Shown piece by piece: positions 4,853-63,778 of a stretch of DNA of 64,000 nucleotides. The translations under genes and the position numbers were made by a program. The notes under the pieces are model-generated. The model saw only the letters and a list, made by a program, of their open reading frames with translations. It did not search any database and was not told where the DNA came from. The stretch's first letter is position 1; each line of letters begins with the position of its first letter. Origin of the DNA: Flavobacterium sp. N2820 (GTDB lineage: Bacteria; Bacteroidota; Bacteroidia; Flavobacteriales; Flavobacteriaceae); the NCBI RefSeq assembly GCF_025947285.1, contig NZ_CP110008.1, forward strand, positions 930,001 through 994,000. Reading direction: 5' to 3'.

Positions 4853-5866
4853 ATGAAAAAACGATTTGAAACCATAGTGCTATTAGTAGTGCTCGCTTTA
4901 TTTACTAGCTGTAAACAAGAAACCATTACTACTCAAAACGAGTATTTTGCACAATCTGCTGACAGCATCCAAAATGGTGGAATAAAAGTCATTCCCATCA
5001 CCACACCAAAAGGCACGTTTAATGTGTGGACAAAACGCATTGGCAACAACCCAAAGATCAAAGTATTGTTGTTAAATGGCGGACCTGGTGCTACACACGA
5101 ATATTTTGAATGTTTTGAGAATTTCTTACCTGCCGAAGGGATCGAATTCATCTATTACGACCAATTAGGATGTGGAAATGCAGATAACCCAAACGATACA
5201 TCCATGTGGGATTTAGCAAGATATGTCGAAGAAGTGGAACAAGTGCGTAAAGCCTTGCAATTAGACAACACCAATTTTTACTTGTTAGGTCATTCTTGGG
5301 GCGGTATTTTAGCAATGGAATACAGTATGAAATATCAAAACAACATGAAAGGCTTAATCATTTCGAACATGATGGCTAGTTGTCCAGAATATGATAAATA
5401 TGCTAATGAAGTTTTAAGTAAACAAATGAACCCTGAAGTGTTGGCAGAACTAATGAAATTGGAAGCCAACAACGACTTTTCGAATCCAAAATACATGGAA
5501 TTGTTGTTGCCAAATTTCTATGAAAAACACATTCTTCGCTTTCCAGCAAAAGATTGGCCAGAACCTGTAAATCGTTCGTTTGCCAAAATGAATCAGTCGC
5601 TTTATGTCACCATGCAAGGGCCGAGTGAATTTGGTATTTCTGGGAAACTAGAAAATTGGGATAGAAAAGCCGATTTAAAAAAGGTAACTATTCCTACGCT
5701 AGTAATCGGAGCCAAACACGATACAATGGATCCAAAACACATGGAAGAAATCTCGAAAATCTTACCAAACGGTTCCTATTTATTCTGTCCGAAAGGAAGT
5801 CACATGGCCTTTTATGATGATCAAAAGACCTATTTTGCGGGATTGATTTCATTCTTGAAAAAATAA
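4853..5866 (+). CDS. Lipoprotein alpha/beta hydrolase, proline iminopeptidase family
   Basis: A 337-residue S33-type hydrolase. The signal ends in a lipobox with C20, so it is probably anchored outside the cytoplasm. The oxyanion-type motif GGPG (residues 76-79) and the nucleophile elbow GHSWGG (Ser148) are characteristic of proline iminopeptidases; Asp290 (in KHDTMDP) and His317 (in KGSHMAF) complete the triad. The family removes N-terminal proline or related residues from peptides, though substrate cannot be fixed from sequence. It is the last gene of the 4207-5866 unit and is followed by a strong terminator. Confidence 0.85.
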   Translation: MKKRFETIVLLVVLALFTSCKQETITTQNEYFAQSADSIQNGGIKVIPITTPKGTFNVWTKRIGNNPKIKVLLLNGGPGATHEYFECFENFLPAEGIEFIYYDQLGCGNADNPNDTSMWDLARYVEEVEQVRKALQLDNTNFYLLGHSWGGILAMEYSMKYQNNMKGLIISNMMASCPEYDKYANEVLSKQMNPEVLAELMKLEANNDFSNPKYMELLLPNFYEKHILRFPAKDWPEPVNRSFAKMNQSLYVTMQGPSEFGISGKLENWDRKADLKKVTIPTLVIGAKHDTMDPKHMEEISKILPNGSYLFCPKGSHMAFYDDQKTYFAGLISFLKK

Positions 5867-6956: not shown

Positions 6957-7336
6957 TACCCATTCAACCTCACCGCTTCTAAATTAGCAGCTTCTTCTTC
7001 AGTAAACAATCTATAATTTACTTTAAATGTTTTTCCGTAAGGTGTTTCCAATGAAAAACCGCCTGCTCCTATTCCATCAGCTACATCTAAGGTAAAATGA
7101 GCGTGTTTCCAATATTCGAACAAATCTTTGTCCACCCAAAATTCAAATCCTTGAAGAGTTCCAATACAAACATCACCAAGTCTTAGATAAAATCCGCCTT
7201 TTTCAAAACATTGCGGTTGCGTTCCTTCGCAACAGCCACCCGCTTGATAGAACATTAAATCACCAAATTTTTCAGATAACTGGTCTATTAAATCTAATGC
7301 TTTTTTAGTCGCTTCTAATCGTTTTATTTTTTCCAT
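6956..7336 (-). CDS. DUF779 domain-containing protein
   Basis: A 126-residue protein of normal family length. It has the family's cysteine-rich motif GGCCEG with C35, C36 and C43, followed by a Gly- and Phe-rich beta region. DUF779 genes are regularly found next to aldehyde dehydrogenases, as here, and the cysteines suggest metal binding or redox chemistry, but the biochemical role is not established. Its stop touches the heptamer array. A terminator separates it from the aldehyde dehydrogenase, so it may have its own promoter in 7337-7478. Confidence 0.88.
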   Translation of the reverse strand: MEKIKRLEATKKALDLIDQLSEKFGDLMFYQAGGCCEGTQPQCFEKGGFYLRLGDVCIGTLQGFEFWVDKDLFEYWKHAHFTLDVADGIGAGGFSLETPYGKTFKVNYRLFTEEEAANLEAVRLNG

Positions 7337-24206: not shown

Positions 24207-25058
24207 TTATTTTGACCATTCAGCAATGCTGTCTTTGTTCATTTTTTCATAATCGCCGTTTCCTGCTTTTGTCGCTAATGCTAAAGATTCTTTTGCCGTA
24301 GCAATTGCCCCTTTTTTATCACCCGATTTTGCTTGAATTAACGATTTTAAACGTAAATACCAGAAAGGAACATCTTGTCCTTTTGGTGAATTAGAAATAG
24401 CACTATTTACCCAAGACAACGCTTTTGTCATATCGCCATTCGTTTGGTAAAAATATTGTGCTGCTGAAAAATAATCACCTGCAGAAGGACCTGCTAATGT
24501 TTTTTCAATACTCTTCATCGCCGCTTCTTGCGTAGGAACCGTAAATGGAATTGAAACAATTGTTCTTTCCCATGATAATTCTAAAACACCTGAATCATTT
24601 GATAAATTATTTAAAAAAATAGTAAATGATTCAACTGATTTATTCAAAGTCTCTGGTTTAACAGAAGTTCTCAAAGCAACTTTGCTTTCATCCCACTCTT
24701 CTGGCAAACCCCAGTTATTTGTGTCTGCATAAAAAATAACATCCCAGCTATCAGCTTTTGGAGTGGTAAATAAAGCATATTTACCCTTTTTAAGTTGTTT
24801 ACCACCAATAGTTACATCTTCACTAAAAGAAATAGTTGTATTTGCATTAGCTCCTGTTCTCCAATTTTTTCCATAAGGAACTAAATCACCATAAACAGTT
24901 CTTCCTTTAGCACTTGGTCTAGAATATTCAATCTGTACTGTAGTTAATCCAACAACTTGATCAATTTTAGCTAACGGGCTAGCTTGAGGCGTTTTAACTT
25001 GTGCTTCTACCACAAAATTGGCTAAAATAACAGCCAACATAACAATAATTTTTCTCAT
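24207..25058 (-). CDS. DUF2911 domain-containing secreted protein
   Basis: A 283-residue protein. The ATG at 25058 (MRKIIVMLAVILANF) begins a normal signal peptide ending at VEAQ; the longer reading adds 36 residues before it. The DUF2911 core (about residues 30-170) has the pattern SRPSAKGR, YGKNWRTGANANT and WDVIFYADTNNWG. The last 90 residues are helical and TPR-like. DUF2911 proteins are widespread in Bacteroidota envelopes and of unknown role. It stands divergent from the photolyase operon. Confidence 0.88.
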   Translation of the reverse strand: MRKIIVMLAVILANFVVEAQVKTPQASPLAKIDQVVGLTTVQIEYSRPSAKGRTVYGDLVPYGKNWRTGANANTTISFSEDVTIGGKQLKKGKYALFTTPKADSWDVIFYADTNNWGLPEEWDESKVALRTSVKPETLNKSVESFTIFLNNLSNDSGVLELSWERTIVSIPFTVPTQEAAMKSIEKTLAGPSAGDYFSAAQYFYQTNGDMTKALSWVNSAISNSPKGQDVPFWYLRLKSLIQAKSGDKKGAIATAKESLALATKAGNGDYEKMNKDSIAEWSK

Positions 25059-25133: not shown

Positions 25134-25167
25134 TTTGTTTAAGTTATTAGTAAAATAATTAAACAAA
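25134..25167. promoter_or_regulatory. 34-bp inverted repeat upstream of the photolyase operon
   Basis: TTTGTTTAA (25134-25142) and TTAAACAAA (25159-25167) are perfect inverted arms separated by 16 bp. The same element with the same spacer occurs twice in the rhodopsin-blh gap (37702-37735 and 37747-37780). Here it ends 5 bp before a -7-like TAACTTTA box (25172-25179). The shape fits a dimeric regulator. Confidence 0.75.
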
Positions 25168-25194: not shown

Positions 25195-25659
25195 ATGAAA
25201 ATCTATAGATTACATACCAAACAAAACTTACCCATAACAATTGACGAAGCTTGGGATTTACTTTCAGATCCAAAAAACCTTCAAAAAATTACTCCTGAAT
25301 ATATGGGATTCAAAATTTTATCTGGAGCAGATAGACCTATGTTTCCAGGGCAAATTATACAATATATAGTTACACCTGTTTTAGGAATCCCTGCGAAATG
25401 GGTTACCGAAATTACCCACGTTGTTGACAAACAGTATTTTGTAGATGAGCAACGTTTTGGACCATATGCGCTTTGGCATCACAAACACTTTATTAAAGAA
25501 ATTCCAGGTGGTGTGGAAATGGAAGATATTGTCGATTATAAAGTTCCGATGGGAATTATAGGACAATTAGTTCATCCTTTTTTAGTCAAACCTAAATTGA
25601 ATGAAATTTTTGAATACAGAAGAAAAAAATTAATCGAAATGTTTGGCGAATTTGTGTAG
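25195..25659 (+). CDS. SRPBCC family protein
   Basis: A 154-residue START-like lipid- or ligand-binding fold; the N-terminal part (LPITIDEAWDLLSDPKNLQKITP) and the middle (GVEMEDIVDY) are typical of the family. Genes of this type are common in photolyase clusters across bacteria, where their ligand is unknown. It is the first gene of a four-gene run ending with two photolyase/cryptochrome proteins. A 34-bp inverted repeat lies just upstream. Confidence 0.85.
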   Translation: MKIYRLHTKQNLPITIDEAWDLLSDPKNLQKITPEYMGFKILSGADRPMFPGQIIQYIVTPVLGIPAKWVTEITHVVDKQYFVDEQRFGPYALWHHKHFIKEIPGGVEMEDIVDYKVPMGIIGQLVHPFLVKPKLNEIFEYRRKKLIEMFGEFV

Positions 25660-25705: not shown

Positions 25706-26404
25706 ATGAAAAACATATTACTAATAGGTGGTTCTTATGGTATAGGATTAGCTATAGCTCAAGAGCTTCAAAACGATAATAACATTTTTGTTGCGTCTAG
25801 AACCAATGAAAATTTAGCGGGTTTGAACGTTACACACATTCCGTTTGACGCCTCTACCGATACTTTAGATGCTTCTAAATTACCTGCAATTTTAGATGGT
25901 TTGGTTTATTGCCCAGGAAGTATTAATTTACGTCCGTTTAGAGGATTAAAACCTGAAGCTTTTGAAGCCGATTTACAAATTAATTTCATTAGTTTAGTAA
26001 AAGTAATTCAAGCCGTTTTACCCAATTTAACTGCAGGTGAACAATCGAGCATCGTGCTTTTTAGTAGTGTTGCTGCTTCTATGGGAATGCCATTTCATAC
26101 CAGTGTGGCAGCGGCTAAAGGTGCTATTGAAGGTTTTGCAAAAGCATTAGCGGCAGAATATGCTCCAAAAATAAGAGTAAACGTAATTGCTCCCTCATTA
26201 ACCGACACTCCATTAGCTGATAAATTCTTAAATAACGAAACCAAACAAGAAAAATCAGCCGAACGTCATCCATTAAAACGATTTGGAAAACCAGAAGATA
26301 GTGCCCAAATGGCAAGCTTTTTATTAAGTGATAAAAGCAGTTGGATTTCAGGACAAATTTTCCATGTTGATGGCGGTATGTCAACATTATTAGTAAACGG
26401 ATAA
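25706..26404 (+). CDS. SDR-family protein lacking the catalytic tyrosine
   Basis: A 232-residue short-chain dehydrogenase/reductase. The cofactor motif is GGSYGIG (8-14), and the Ser (120-121, in LFSSVAAS) and Lys138 of the active site are present. The residue that should be Tyr in the YxxxK motif is Val134 (SVAAAKGA), so the classical catalytic triad is incomplete. The C-terminal end (HVDGGMSTL) is normal for the family. Position inside a photolyase operon is typical; the true activity is unknown and may be a non-reductase or binding role. Confidence 0.87.
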   Translation: MKNILLIGGSYGIGLAIAQELQNDNNIFVASRTNENLAGLNVTHIPFDASTDTLDASKLPAILDGLVYCPGSINLRPFRGLKPEAFEADLQINFISLVKVIQAVLPNLTAGEQSSIVLFSSVAASMGMPFHTSVAAAKGAIEGFAKALAAEYAPKIRVNVIAPSLTDTPLADKFLNNETKQEKSAERHPLKRFGKPEDSAQMASFLLSDKSSWISGQIFHVDGGMSTLLVNG

Positions 26405-26415
26405 TAGAATAAAAA

Positions 26416-27702
26416 ATGAATATTTTTTGGTTTAGACGCGATTTAAGAATAGAAGACAACGTAGGACTTTTTCATGCTTTAAATAGTGCTGAAGAAGTTC
26501 TCCCAATTTTTATTTTTGACGAAATTATTTTGTCGGAACTTCCAAAAGATGATGCTAGGGTTTCGTTTATTCAAGAACAATTAGAAAAAATTCAGTCAGA
26601 ATTGAGTAAAATTGGGAAGTCATTAGCGGTTTTTCACGGAAACCCCATTGACGTTTTTACCAAATTAATTTCCGAAAATAAAATCACAGCAGTTTACACC
26701 AATCATGATTACGAACCTTACGCTCGTAAGCGCGACAAGGAAATGAATCAGTTGTTTGTTTCGAAAGGCATTTCTTTTTTAACTTTGAAAGACCAGGTTA
26801 TTTTTGAAAAAAGTGAAGTGGTTAAAGATGATGGAAGTCCTTATGTGGTTTACACACCTTATTCAAAAAAATGGAAAGAGAACTTCAGAAAAATCAAGTT
26901 AGTTCATTATCCATCGGAAGATAAATTGGATAAAATTACGAAGCACTCCTACCCTTTTTTATCATTAGATGATATTGGTTTTGAAAAATCAACAATTAAA
27001 GTTTCTGCTTTTGATATTTCCGAAAATTTAATTCAGAATTACGAAGCTACGCGAAATTTTCCAGCTTTAAACAAAACCTCGTATCTGGGAATTTACCTCA
27101 GATTTGGTGCGGTTTCTATTCGAAAAATGATTGCAAAAGCCATTGCAGAAAAAAATGAAACCTTTTGGAACGAGTTAATTTGGCGCGAATTCTTCATGCA
27201 AATTCTATGGCATTTTCCGCATACTAAAAATACCAGTTTTAGACCAAAATACGATGCCATTATTTGGGAAAACAATGAAGATTTATTTCAAAAATGGTGT
27301 CAAGGAAAAACAGGTTATCCTTTTGTTGATGCGGGAATGCGAGAATTAAATGCAACTGGTCACATGCACAATCGCGTGCGTATGATTGTTGCTAGTTTCT
27401 TATGCAAACATTTATTAATCGATTGGCGCTGGGGCGAAACTTATTTTGCACAAAAACTATTAGATTACGAAATGGCGAGCAATGTTGGAAATTGGCAATG
27501 GGCAGCAGGTTCTGGTGTAGATGCTGCACCATATTTTAGAATTTTCAATCCAACAGAACAAATCAAAAAATTTGACAAAGATTTAAAATACATCAAAAAA
27601 TGGATTCCAGAATTGGAAACCCAATATTATCCAAAACCAATTGTAGATCACAAAGAAGCACGAGAACGATGCTTGAGAGTGTACAAAGAAGCAGTTGGTT
27701 AG
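26416..27702 (+). CDS. phrB: Deoxyribodipyrimidine photo-lyase (CPD class I type)
   Basis: A 428-residue flavoprotein. The N-terminal Rossmann-like antenna domain starts WFRRDLRIEDN and the C-terminal FAD domain has the family motifs: ELIWREFF, GYPFVDAGMREL, TGHMHNRVRM (with the flavin-contacting Asn) and DWRWGETYFA followed by NVGNWQWAAG. The tryptophans of the electron chain appear present. It repairs cyclobutane pyrimidine dimers using blue light. It is co-transcribed with the genes upstream (12 bp gap) and separated from the next gene by a heptamer repeat. Confidence 0.93.
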   Translation: MNIFWFRRDLRIEDNVGLFHALNSAEEVLPIFIFDEIILSELPKDDARVSFIQEQLEKIQSELSKIGKSLAVFHGNPIDVFTKLISENKITAVYTNHDYEPYARKRDKEMNQLFVSKGISFLTLKDQVIFEKSEVVKDDGSPYVVYTPYSKKWKENFRKIKLVHYPSEDKLDKITKHSYPFLSLDDIGFEKSTIKVSAFDISENLIQNYEATRNFPALNKTSYLGIYLRFGAVSIRKMIAKAIAEKNETFWNELIWREFFMQILWHFPHTKNTSFRPKYDAIIWENNEDLFQKWCQGKTGYPFVDAGMRELNATGHMHNRVRMIVASFLCKHLLIDWRWGETYFAQKLLDYEMASNVGNWQWAAGSGVDAAPYFRIFNPTEQIKKFDKDLKYIKKWIPELETQYYPKPIVDHKEARERCLRVYKEAVG

Positions 27703-27753: not shown

Positions 27754-29214
27754 ATGAAAGTTGTTTGGTTCAAGAGAGATTTGCGTTTGCACGATCATGA
27801 AGCCTTACATGAAGCCTTATCGACTTCGGGCAAGACTTTGTTGCTTTATATTTTTGAACCTTCGCTGATGAAAGATTATCATTATAGTGCGCGTCATTTT
27901 GATTTTATAAAACAATCGTTAGAAGCACTTCAAAAAGAACTCCAAAAATACCACACACAAATTTTAATTGTTCAAGGAGAAGCGGTACCAGTTTTTCAAA
28001 AGCTAACACAACTTATTTCTATACGAGAAATTTATTCCCATCAAGAAACAGGAATAAAACTAACATACGAAAGAGATTTAGCTGTAGCTGAATTGTTAAA
28101 AGAAAAAGGAATCATCTGGAAAGAATACATCACAAATGGTGTCATTCGTGGCATCAAAAACCGAAAAACATGGAAAGAAGATTGGTATGATTACATGGAT
28201 AAAGATTGTTTACCATTTCATCCAACACCAAGAAGTTTTGTAAAATATATTGAAATTGAAGAATTAGAAAATGCCTTTGATGTTCCTTCGATTAAAACAG
28301 TTCATAATCCAAATTTTCAAAAAGGAGGTGTTCCCACGGCATTGCGTTATATGCACTCTTTCTTTGAAGAACGGGTGCAAAATTATAGCAATCACATTTC
28401 AAAACCTGAATTAGGTAGAAAAGGATGCAGCCGATTATCGCCTTATATTGCTTGGGGAAATTTATCTATTAGACAAGTGTATACCAAAGCTTGGGAAGTG
28501 CATCAACAAGGGAAATTTAAACGTCAGATTTCTAATTTTGCGTCAAGATTACGATGGCAAGCGCATTTTATTCAGAAATTTGAAATGGAAAGCACAATGG
28601 AGTTCATAGCCGTAAATAAAGGCTATCGCAATTTGATTCAAAGAGTCAATGAGAAATATCATAAAGCTTGGATAACCGGAAAAACAGGTGTTCCACTGGT
28701 TGATGCTTGCATGCGCTGTTTAAATACAACAGGTTATTTGAATTTTAGAATGCGTGCTCTGGTGGTTTCGTTTTACACACATCATTTGTTTCAACCTTGG
28801 CAAAATTGCAGTCCGCATTTGGCGCAACAATTCCTAGATTTTGAACCTGGAATTCACTATCCTCAAATTCAAATGCAAGCGGGTGTGACTGGAATTAATA
28901 CGTTACGCGTTTATAATCCTGTGAAAAATTCATACGAACACGATGCTGATGGTACTTTTATTAAAAAATGGGTACCTGAGTTAGCAAATATTCCTGCTGA
29001 ATTTATTCATGAACCATGGAAATTAACACCCATTGAGCAAATGTTGTATGATTTTGAAATAGGACGCGATTATCCTTCTCCAATTGTCAATTTAGAAGAA
29101 GCCAGAAAGTTTTCAAGTGATTTCTTTTGGTCAATGCGAAAAGAAGAATCCGTCAAAAAAGACAGCAAACGAATTGTTGAAAAACACACGTTTCAAGATC
29201 GAGAAATGAGTTAG
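27754..29214 (+). CDS. Cryptochrome/photolyase family protein
   Basis: A 486-residue paralogue of the preceding gene, with the same two-domain plan: [14 protein letters not shown] at the start, and in the FAD domain the [18 protein letters not shown] and [10 protein letters not shown] motifs, including an Asn at the flavin N5 position. It is longer than the upstream photolyase and has a charged C-terminal tail of about 30 residues. It may repair DNA or act as a photoreceptor; the sequence does not decide. It is not of the iron-sulfur subtype, since no cysteine cluster is evident. Its stop overlaps the convergent HAD gene by 4 bp. Confidence 0.88.
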
Positions 29215-36947: not shown

Positions 36948-37682
36948 CTAAGCCTTTTCGTTTGAAGTTGATTTTACAGCTAAATTGTAAACAACCAACC
37001 CAAAACCGATTTTGTTAATCGCATCAGCAATGTTATACGCTACATCTACACTTCCTTTACCTAGGAAACTAGTGTACCATCCATCAGTTCCTAACATGTA
37101 ACCTAATGGATAAATAGCCCAACCAACTAATACGAACCAACATAAAATTTTGTGAGAAGCTAATACATTTCCACCAGCAGCAGCAGCTAATTTTGATGCT
37201 TCACCTAACCAAATCTCATAAACAATCCAGAAATATGCAACACCAGAAATGAATCCCCATAAAGCTGCTTGATCACTAAAAATTGTTTCTCCAAAATAAC
37301 CTGTAACTAACATAACTATCGATAAGAAAATCATTTTCCACAATAAGCTTTGTTTTGCACCTGCTACTTTTAAAATCAAATAAAACTCTAAACACATTAA
37401 CGGCACAGTTAATACCCAGTCAACATATCTAAAAAATGTTGGTGATTCTTGAAAAGCATTCCAATAATCACGCATGTAAAAATAATGCACAGCTGCAATA
37501 AAAGTAATTAATCCTGATACTAATACTGATGTCCGCCACTTTTTATCAAATTGATTTAATGATAAAAAGAAAAATGCTGAAGCAGCCATCATAGCCATGC
37601 TTCCAATAAAAAATGTAAAACCAACGTAATCGTTTGGTAGCATTTTAGCTACACTTGCAGAAATAAACATAAAATTTGACAT
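36948..37682 (-). CDS. Proteorhodopsin, light-driven proton pump (DTE type)
   Basis: A 244-residue seven-helix protein. Helix C reads RYVDWVLTVPLMCLEF: D88 is the counterion and proton acceptor, T92 and E99 complete the DTE pattern of proton pumps, and H66 is the conserved partner of the acceptor. The retinal Lys is K224 (in NKIGFG). At the site that sets colour (105 in green proteorhodopsin numbering) there is Met96, which is associated with green absorption in flavobacteria. It pumps protons outward in light. It is divergent from blh, which makes retinal, and has its own copy of the 34-bp inverted repeat in the shared gap. Confidence 0.96.
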   Translation of the reverse strand: MSNFMFISASVAKMLPNDYVGFTFFIGSMAMMAASAFFFLSLNQFDKKWRTSVLVSGLITFIAAVHYFYMRDYWNAFQESPTFFRYVDWVLTVPLMCLEFYLILKVAGAKQSLLWKMIFLSIVMLVTGYFGETIFSDQAALWGFISGVAYFWIVYEIWLGEASKLAAAAGGNVLASHKILCWFVLVGWAIYPLGYMLGTDGWYTSFLGKGSVDVAYNIADAINKIGFGLVVYNLAVKSTSNEKA

Positions 37683-37701: not shown

Positions 37702-37735
37702 TTTGTTTAAGTAAATTTACTAAACGTTAAACGAA
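37702..37735. promoter_or_regulatory. 34-bp inverted repeat on the rhodopsin side
   Basis: TTTGTTTAA (37702-37710) and TTAAACGAA (37727-37735) with a 16-bp spacer; one mismatch to the perfect copies. It lies 20 bp upstream of the rhodopsin start on that strand, over a TAAATTTA box. Confidence 0.7.
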
Positions 37736-37746
37736 ATAAAAAACAT

Positions 37747-37780
37747 TTTGTTTAATTTTTTATAAAAAATATTAAACAAA
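37747..37780. promoter_or_regulatory. 34-bp inverted repeat on the blh side
   Basis: TTTGTTTAA (37747-37755) and TTAAACAAA (37772-37780), 16-bp spacer, identical arms to the copy at 25134-25167. It ends 6 bp before the blh start, so a bound protein could block transcription or translation initiation. Confidence 0.75.
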
Positions 37781-37786
37781 AAAAAT

Positions 37787-38671
37787 ATGAAAATGTACAA
37801 AGTCCAGAAAATAACAGTCATAGCAAGCTTTTTAGGGCTTTGGCTAACTTCTTATTTATCAGATAAGAATCAGTTGGTTTTGGGATTTATCTTGATTTTT
37901 ACCTTTGGAATTTTACATGGAGCAAACGATTTAGTATTGATTAGTCAACTTGAAAATAGAAAAAAGCAAAGCTTTTTTAAAATATTAATTAGTTACATTG
38001 CAATAGTATTAATTTCTGCACTGCTTTTTACAAAAATTCCGATTGTAGCTTTAACCTTATTTATATTAGTTAGTGCTTATCACTTTGGGGAACAACATTG
38101 GCAAGACATAGAAAAAAACGGGAATAAAATAATTACCAAAATATTTCAATTTAATTATGGTTTAATCATCTTATTGTTATTGTTCATCTTCAACAAAAAA
38201 GAAGTTATAGAAATTGTTTTTAAGATTACAACAGTTTCAATTGCTGAAAAAACAATAAGTATTGCGTTTTTTATAGTATTACTATTGTTTTTAATTAACA
38301 CCTATATATTGTATAAGAAATCAGAAACTTTTAAAAACATTATAATTGAACAACTTTTTTACTTGGTGTTGCTCTGCTTAATATTTAAAGTTTCTAGTTT
38401 AATATGGGGATTTACAATATACTTTATATTTTGGCACAGCATACCTTCTCTAAATGATCAAATCCGCTTTTTATATGGTAAATATTCGTTTACAAATTTT
38501 AAGAAATACTTTAAATCTGCTTTTTTGTATTGGATAATTTCTTTAGTGGGAATAAGTATACTCTATTTCATCTCTAAAGACCTGATTATTTTTGATGCTT
38601 TGTTCTTTTCATTTTTAGCATCAATTACATTTCCACACGCAATTGTAATTTTAAAGATGTATAAAAAATAA
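37787..38671 (+). CDS. blh: Brp/Blh-family beta-carotene 15,15'-dioxygenase
   Basis: A 294-residue membrane protein with about seven to eight helices. The conserved His residues that hold iron appear in GILHGANDL, SAYHFGEQHW, FWHSIPS and ITFPHAIV, the four-block pattern of the family. It splits beta-carotene into two retinal molecules for the divergent rhodopsin. No carotenoid synthesis genes are in the window, so the substrate must come from elsewhere. A 34-bp inverted repeat sits immediately upstream. Confidence 0.93.
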   Translation: MKMYKVQKITVIASFLGLWLTSYLSDKNQLVLGFILIFTFGILHGANDLVLISQLENRKKQSFFKILISYIAIVLISALLFTKIPIVALTLFILVSAYHFGEQHWQDIEKNGNKIITKIFQFNYGLIILLLLFIFNKKEVIEIVFKITTVSIAEKTISIAFFIVLLLFLINTYILYKKSETFKNIIIEQLFYLVLLCLIFKVSSLIWGFTIYFIFWHSIPSLNDQIRFLYGKYSFTNFKKYFKSAFLYWIISLVGISILYFISKDLIIFDALFFSFLASITFPHAIVILKMYKK

Positions 38672-62920: not shown

Positions 62921-63778
62921 ATGAAATGGAGAGGCAGACGTCAAAGTGACAACGTAGAAGACCGCAGAGGTATGTCGGGCGGTGGTAAAGCAATCGTTGG
63001 AGGTGGTTTAATTGGTGTTGTAATTCTATTACTGAATATGTTTGGTGGTGAAAATGCCAAAATGTTAACACCTCTTTTGGAACAAATAAATCAAGGCCAA
63101 CAAACAGCTCCAACAGAACAACGCGACCTTACCGCTGAAGAAAAAGAAATGGGTGAATTTGTCAAAACTGTTTTAGCCGATACCGAAGATATTTGGACAA
63201 AAATTTTTGAAGAGAATAACCTTGGAACCTACAAACAACCTGTAATGGTGTTGTTTTCTGGTTCAGTTGAAACTGCTTGTGGAGGCGCAAGTTCGGCTTC
63301 AGGTCCATTTTATTGTCCTGGCGACCAAAAAGTGTATATGGATTTAACTTTCTTCGAGGAACTTCGTACCCGTTTTGGAGCAAAAGGGGGTGACTTTGCA
63401 ATTGCATATGTAATTGCTCATGAAGTAGGACATCACGTACAAACCCTATTGGGCACTTCAGCTAAAGTAAGGCAATTACAACAAACCAAAAGCGAAACGG
63501 AAGGAAATAAATTATCAGTATGCCTAGAACTACAAGCCGATTTTTATGGCGGTTTATGGGCGCATTACAATAAGCAATACCTAGAAGCTGGTGATATTGA
63601 AGAGGCATTAAGCGCTGCACACGCGGTAGGCGATGATGCCATTCAAAGTAAAATGCAAGGACATGTTGTTCCTGATTCATTTACACACGGCACCTCAGAA
63701 CAACGTATGAAATGGTTTATGAAAGGATATAATTCTGGTGATATTCGATTACACGACACTTTTAATGAAGAATTGTAA
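62921..63778 (+). CDS. Neutral zinc metallopeptidase (YpfJ family)
   Basis: A 285-residue protein of the putative zinc peptidase family. The N-terminal 20 residues are basic (MKWRGRRQSDNVEDRRGMSGG), followed by a membrane anchor (about 25-42). The zinc motif HEVGHH starts at H167 and the acidic ligand region in LELQADFYGG lies downstream. Cys residues in ACGGAS and FYCPG are conserved in the family. Substrate unknown. A terminator follows. Confidence 0.92.
   Translation: MKWRGRRQSDNVEDRRGMSGGGKAIVGGGLIGVVILLLNMFGGENAKMLTPLLEQINQGQQTAPTEQRDLTAEEKEMGEFVKTVLADTEDIWTKIFEENNLGTYKQPVMVLFSGSVETACGGASSASGPFYCPGDQKVYMDLTFFEELRTRFGAKGGDFAIAYVIAHEVGHHVQTLLGTSAKVRQLQQTKSETEGNKLSVCLELQADFYGGLWAHYNKQYLEAGDIEEALSAAHAVGDDAIQSKMQGHVVPDSFTHGTSEQRMKWFMKGYNSGDIRLHDTFNEEL

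Follow-up and report, generated by a model that had tools for sequence, protein, structure and literature searches.

How does a flavobacterium coordinate its rhodopsin with the supply of retinal and with photorepair? The question is raised by a 64,000-nucleotide stretch of the Flavobacterium sp. N2820 genome (contig NZ_CP110008.1, positions 930,001 to 994,000; hereafter the window), in which the rhodopsin gene (Bac_rhodopsin, PF01036, E 4.4e-39; 36948-37682, reverse strand) and blh, encoding the beta-carotene 15,15'-dioxygenase that supplies retinal (PF15461; TIGR03753 above cut-off; 37787-38671, forward strand), are divergent. The 104-bp gap between them houses two copies of a 34-bp inverted repeat, TTTGTTTAA-N16-TTAAACAAA, and a third copy precedes a photolyase operon. 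A preliminary description of the window placed the element, with identical arms, at these three predicted operator positions, and its coordinates and gene calls are right. The arms are exact on the blh side (37747-37780, 6 bp off the blh ATG) and at the photolyase operon (25134-25167, with 27 bp separating site and ATG), whereas the rhodopsin-side copy (37702-37735, 20 bp off the rhodopsin start) has one mismatch, its core being exact. Judged from its sequence and distribution, the 34-bp repeat is a real operator. We consider it likely that it serves a Bacteroidota light regulon run by a MerR protein of the CarH/LitR type, with repression in the dark and release in the light.

Could the repeat arise simply from AT-rich sequence between genes and from the promoter boxes of Bacteroidota? 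The arm begins with TTTG, itself part of such boxes, and loose matches are consistent with this idea. Within the window, a scan at up to three mismatches gave the weak result of 3 sites where 1.43 are expected, with at least that many in 15 of 100 shuffles. Genome-wide (3.06 Mb), counts at up to three mismatches (40 against 60 in the control) and for the core with up to one mismatch (47 against 108) were uninformative. Being no commoner than the control in all of these searches, loose matches were dropped. In contrast, at up to one mismatch the genome has 6 sites and the reversed control none, in keeping with the earlier remark that AT content hardly explains the element. The spacer length, also said to be fixed, is truly so: when exact arm pairs 4 to 34 bp apart were counted in 40 genomes, 41 of the 54 had a spacer of 16 bp and 6 had one of 17 bp (reversed control, 7).

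The exact core GTTTAA-N16-TTAAAC occurs at exactly seven places in the genome, a count that stands without an exact-match control (the 108 above refers to the search at up to one mismatch). Every one lies ahead of a gene of the set considered here: litR, a fasciclin gene, the photolyase operon, rhodopsin, blh, the TetR-ABC1 genes and a flavin-reductase/cry-DASH/DPRP operon. A further site, with one mismatch, abuts the ATG of a DUF2805 gene, and exact arms with a 17-bp spacer stand ahead of crtI (342846-342880) and of msrA-folE (1111688-1111722). The preliminary description had anticipated hits ahead of carotenoid genes, a LitR/CarH-like gene and other photolyase loci, and sites are present at crtI, at litR and at the flavin-reductase/cry-DASH operon, respectively. 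The accompanying claim that the element stands only near light-related genes was too narrow: light genes carry it, but so do the fasciclin, DUF2805 and TetR-ABC1 genes. Three sites with two mismatches were excluded from the regulon, at 63553 (between two open reading frames, ORFs), 212588 (within an ORF) and 2663050 (ahead of an outer-membrane-barrel-like gene).

Loci chosen without the motif carry it as well. A rhodopsin homologue is present in 51 of 199 genomes of the family, and the best 30 loci of these, the window genome's included, all have a divergent blh. Conservation ahead of homologous genes was confirmed in 20 of these 30 rhodopsin/blh gaps, which have a site at up to two mismatches; arm-shuffled controls give a mean of 0.06 and a maximum of 3, and spacers of 8 to 25 bp other than 16 never score above 2. 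With the spacer fixed and shuffled arms close to zero in homologous gaps, an origin in base composition and chance is extremely improbable. At litR, the left arm lies exactly 16 bp before the ATG in 22 of 30 loci, and in those 22 the right arm coincides with the start codons ATG AAC AA(T/C), so that coding sequence and element overlap. The control for this upstream region has a mean of 0.25, but one arm permutation, its right arm overlapping ATG AAC AA(T/C), scores 16 of 30; the test rests on the left arm at its fixed distance (22 at 16 bp, 2 elsewhere between 0 and 99 bp). A site lies behind litR in 10 of the 30 loci.

Beyond these loci, a site with at most one mismatch is found in 28 of 40 genomes (the window genome and 39 relatives). 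A scan of named genomes by pattern alone recovered at least 117 loci, at least 115 of them Bacteroidota by title, a spread that describes a sample of named genomes rather than a full census. Bacteroidota titles among the matches listed include Flavobacterium, Algoriphagus, Psychroflexus, Winogradskyella, Maribacter, Sediminibacterium, Larkinella and Prolixibacteraceae. Of the two other titles listed, one belongs to an Erysipelotrichaceae contig, the other to a contig labelled Candidatus Kuenenia (L174). The latter has the site with pyruvoyl-tetrahydropterin synthase and FolE genes, and may be a mis-binned Bacteroidota piece.

Domains were assigned to 134 proteins of 100-700 aa with a start at most 130 bp from a site, drawn from 103 of the 117 listed loci. 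These include 17 proteins with sigma-70 region 2, 16 fasciclins, 16 amino-oxidases (15 CrtI-like by blastp), 14 pyruvoyl-tetrahydropterin synthases, five each of GTP cyclohydrolases, TetR_C_23 proteins and Blh, and four each of rhodopsins, flavin reductases and MerR/B12-binding proteins. Among the matches listed, 97 of 121 sites have the start of a set gene within 300 bp, compared with 269 of 2420 positions drawn at random within these loci, and 24 do not; the 97 of 121 is a descriptive figure, because the set was partly defined from those same loci. At one locus (L018, 7058-7091) the site runs right up to the ATG of a DUF2805/TIGR03643 gene. The fasciclin site is near-identical in Flavobacterium lacisediminis, and a fasciclin gene and a divergent MORN-repeat gene share one site at several loci (L016:6145-8044, L070, L079, L157, L164); we know of no role for fasciclin in a light response. 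Locus L141 has a tandem pair of extracytoplasmic function (ECF) sigma genes, each with an identical 34-bp site (5245-5278 and 7042-7075). In Cytophagales/Chitinophagales-type loci (L060, L101, L104, L116, L133, L168) the order is litR, site, ECF sigma gene, ahead of crtI-crtB, possibly a two-step cascade.

Which protein reads the element? The preliminary description had pointed to LitR/CarH, and the window genome encodes a sole CarH-like protein among those found. Its N-terminus is a MerR winged-helix DNA-binding domain (PF13411, E 2.9e-13), followed by the helical-bundle and Rossmann cobalamin domain of class I CarH/LitR proteins, and the predicted fold is that of CarH. The Wx9EH and E-x-H motifs are present, with the Trp and Glu in 28 of 28 homologues, the His of EH in 25 and the lower-ligand His in all 28 (W143 and lower axial H193 in the window genome's own LitR). 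Next after the gene come a phytoene desaturase-like gene, a phytoene synthase-like gene and one that we read as crtZ, and litR adjoins crt genes in many pattern-selected loci. Here we take the names ABC1, crtI, crtB, crtZ and SRPBCC to apply on the basis of domain matches, of which crtZ had none in Pfam. A short MerR protein (2913119), which at 110 aa has no room for a sensor domain, was not considered further.

The presence of the motif follows that of the CarH/LitR gene. In the 199 family genomes (about one per genus, in 198 genera; the counts ignore kinship), the motif is found in 143 of the 150 that have a close homologue of CarH/LitR and in 8 of the 38 that have none, these being defined by elimination; where the homologue is distant (E about 1e-38 to 1e-44, a class set after the E-values were known), the count is 5 of 11. 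Pooled, this amounts to 148 of 161 genomes with any match versus 8 of 38 without. For the 51 rhodopsin genomes, the motif is present somewhere in 39 of 42 with LitR and in 4 of 9 without. Tight matches number 463 in LitR genomes against 21 in the control, a further point against chance, and the count in LitR-less genomes is near control level (15 versus 10, and a single genome, 81% complete, accounts for 6 of the 15).

Two other regulators could be envisaged. The TetR-type protein (TetR_C_23) might control all sites, its own included, with the CarH-like gene merely another target. Sites do stand ahead of TetR-ABC1 in the window genome, in five pattern-selected loci and in six relatives, and the motif occurs in 8 of 12 genomes with TetR but without a close LitR, compared with 5 of 37 with neither. 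However, 29 of 31 genomes with a close LitR and no TetR keep the motif (mean 2.1 sites), and we regard control by TetR as quite improbable. Alternatively, some other regulator, such as a CRP/FNR-type protein, a two-component system or the ECF sigma factors found near crt genes in other orders, could bind the element, with CarH/LitR co-occurring because light genes travel together. The co-occurrence analysis covered two regulators only, CarH/LitR and TetR, and ECF sigma genes adjoin 22 of the 121 sites among the matches listed. Yet the site stands ahead of these ECF genes, which makes them look like targets, and a promoter would not have the symmetry of the element. Moreover, genes of the set persist where LitR is absent: SRPBCC is retained in 14 of the 38 LitR-less genomes and the motif in 5 of those 14, and the near-control motif count in LitR-less genomes also speaks against a regulator of this kind, which we judge unlikely. 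Of the two regulators tested by co-occurrence, the CarH/LitR-like protein is thus the best supported.

We propose that, in the dark, this CarH/LitR-kind MerR protein, whose gene heads crtI-crtB, would grip both arms and block promoters that overlap the site. Light striking the adenosylcobalamin bound to LitR would cause the protein to leave the DNA, and rhodopsin, retinal synthesis by Blh, carotenoids, photolyases/cryptochromes, pterin synthesis (folE) and stress genes would come on together; litR would also control itself. At spacer positions three to five, counted from each arm, the base is A or T in 93-98% of the 121 sites among the matches listed, and so the recognised stretch appears longer than the arms. 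The flavobacterial RpoD promoter has the form TTG ... TAnnTTTG (PMC3587595). At 12 of 77 single-direction sites a TAnnTTTG box ends exactly at the start of the gene-side arm (0.06 expected; 1 on the other strand), and a bound protein would therefore cover the promoter at those sites. The box thus overlaps at one preferred offset, yet the element as a symmetric 34-mer of fixed spacer is no promoter. A second offset (13 of 77 sites, TTTG shared with the left arm) was rejected as promoter evidence: 10 are expected, within chance, because the arm itself supplies TTTG. Promoter coverage, taken with the known mode of CarH, makes dark repression and release by light the likeliest mode of control.

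Class I CarH/LitR proteins are adenosylcobalamin-dependent repressors of carotenoid genes, as in Thermus thermophilus, Bacillus megaterium and Myxococcus xanthus. CarH is described as an adenosylcobalamin tetramer that represses in the dark from direct-repeat operators overlapping promoters and is released by light (PMC8156234), whereas the preliminary description had put forward a single dimeric regulator. The flavobacterial system resembles class I in its MerR and cobalamin domains, the position of the gene beside crt genes, the TnnACA half-site (each arm fits, with A at repeat position 2 in only about 44%) and the partial overlap of site and promoter box. Unlike the three or four tandem 11-bp direct repeats (nAnnTnnACAn) of class I operators, however, the arms here are inverted in a 34-bp repeat, 16 bp apart, and the targets extend to rhodopsin, blh and fasciclin. 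The class II LitR proteins of Pseudomonas (PplR/PmlR) are reported to have a light regulon of PhrB, FolE, CryB and a short-chain dehydrogenase (SDR), with sites T(G/A)TACA-N12-TGTA(C/T)A (PMC9758184). Paired TnnACA-type half-sites at fixed spacing and the targets photolyase, cryptochrome, GTP cyclohydrolase and SDR are common to both systems, whereas the wider spacing, the other arms, the retained CarH-like two-part cobalamin domain and the carotenoid, rhodopsin (blh) and fasciclin targets set the present one apart. By title and the start of the abstract, none of the papers listed in a literature search poor in subscription papers describes this operator or a Bacteroidota LitR regulon. In a passage on a Chryseobacterium with light-induced carotenoids, a car/lit gene is stated not to have been found (PMC7064467).

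Several observations weigh against regulation by a light-released LitR, or at least against its generality. Ten of the 30 rhodopsin/blh gaps have no site at up to two mismatches, the window genome's litR site has the core only (5 mismatches overall), and neither rhodopsin nor blh in the window could be given a clear promoter box. The motif is missing from 7 of 150 genomes with a close LitR and present in 13 of 49 without one; those 13 hold 24 sites, and of 17 inspected, 6 lie inside ORFs, 6 at set genes and 5 between non-set genes. A site stands directly upstream (at most two mismatches) in only 4 of 30 SRPBCC loci (control mean 0.02, maximum 1). SRPBCC follows a same-strand gene in 25 of these loci (24 gaps of at most 76 bp, one of 583), none of them with a site at up to three mismatches. 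Where it heads an operon, with a divergent upstream neighbour, 5 of 5 loci have a site (mismatches 0, 2, 2, 2 and 3), a split by neighbour direction that was made post hoc. Rhodopsin expression is called constitutive in a passage on Dokdonia PRO95 (PMC3587595), which argues against a universal rule. Finally, the B12-binding profile did not detect the Rossmann half of LitR, and His132, aligned to Thermus CarH (the only class I protein compared), is found in none of the 28 homologues, where the position is Q, L, V, A, S, M or I.

The last point raises an alternative that differs in the sensing step alone: LitR would bind the sites but sense cobalamin state, redox or a partner protein instead of light in the manner of CarH. 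In Thermus CarH, His132 is described as the upper ligand after photolysis, and H132A as mostly still tetrameric after light, in contrast to an earlier report of disassembly (PMC10442372); the Pseudomonas class II LitR is described as working through a LOV protein (PMC9758184). That protein, however, is described there as lacking a second B12 domain, and the invariant Trp, Glu and lower-ligand His and the CarH fold noted above argue for a cobalamin sensor of the CarH kind. We hold this alternative possible, at a probability well below that of light-released LitR. The system probably works like CarH, by analogy, with a photochemistry that is not to be assumed the same because His132 is missing from all 28 homologues. 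More tentatively, and with our judgement leaning slightly against it, a His132-less B12-type photoreceptor with a photocycle unlike that of Thermus CarH may read a widely spaced inverted repeat throughout the Bacteroidota. Phototrophy by rhodopsin would then be directly coupled to the supply of retinal, to carotenoids, to the pterin cofactor and to photorepair, and fasciclin and DUF2805 proteins would be core members of the light response that have gone unrecognised.

The photolyase operon of the window comprises, on the forward strand, an SRPBCC/polyketide-cyclase-like gene (25195-25659; PF03364, E 1.3e-4, just below cut-off), a short-chain dehydrogenase (25706-26404; PF13561), a DNA photolyase (26416-27702; PF00875, PF03441) and a photolyase/cryptochrome paralogue (27754-29214; PF00875, PF03441). 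Divergent from it is a DUF2911 gene (24207-25058, reverse strand; PF11138), whose start at 25058 is a chosen reading, the ORF itself reaching 25166 from TTG; this gene may share the site. DUF2911 lies across the site from SRPBCC in 5 of 6 pattern-selected SRPBCC-adjacent loci, in 4 of them near enough for scanning. In six relatives picked for TetR-SRPBCC proximity (L299-L304), the TetR, ABC1 kinase, flavin reductase, cry-DASH, DPRP, DUF2805, FolE, SDR, SRPBCC and photolyase genes lie together in a single long cluster, headed in 6 of 6 by a site with one or two mismatches; in 4 there is a second site inside. One of these relatives (L299) also has recognisable genes for DUF2867, glutathione peroxidase and TspO. 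In the window genome the same genes occupy five places, each with its own site (one with a 17-bp spacer, one exact in the core only), for which the simplest reading is that co-regulation was retained after dispersal of the cluster. Photolyase clusters are reported to be enriched in rhodopsin-bearing marine Flavobacteriia (PMC5932025).

The control of rhodopsin genes in flavobacteria is called open in a passage of the 2013 Dokdonia genome paper (PMC3587595), and the operator described here bears on it. It raises the question of how sensing of the CarH kind would operate in a protein that lacks His132, and it gives a testable role to little-known families such as DUF2805, DUF2452, fasciclin and the TetR-ABC1 kinase. 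As a handle that can be searched for in genomes, it would predict light-responsive genes in many Bacteroidota, and it ties phototrophy and photorepair to one candidate sensor.
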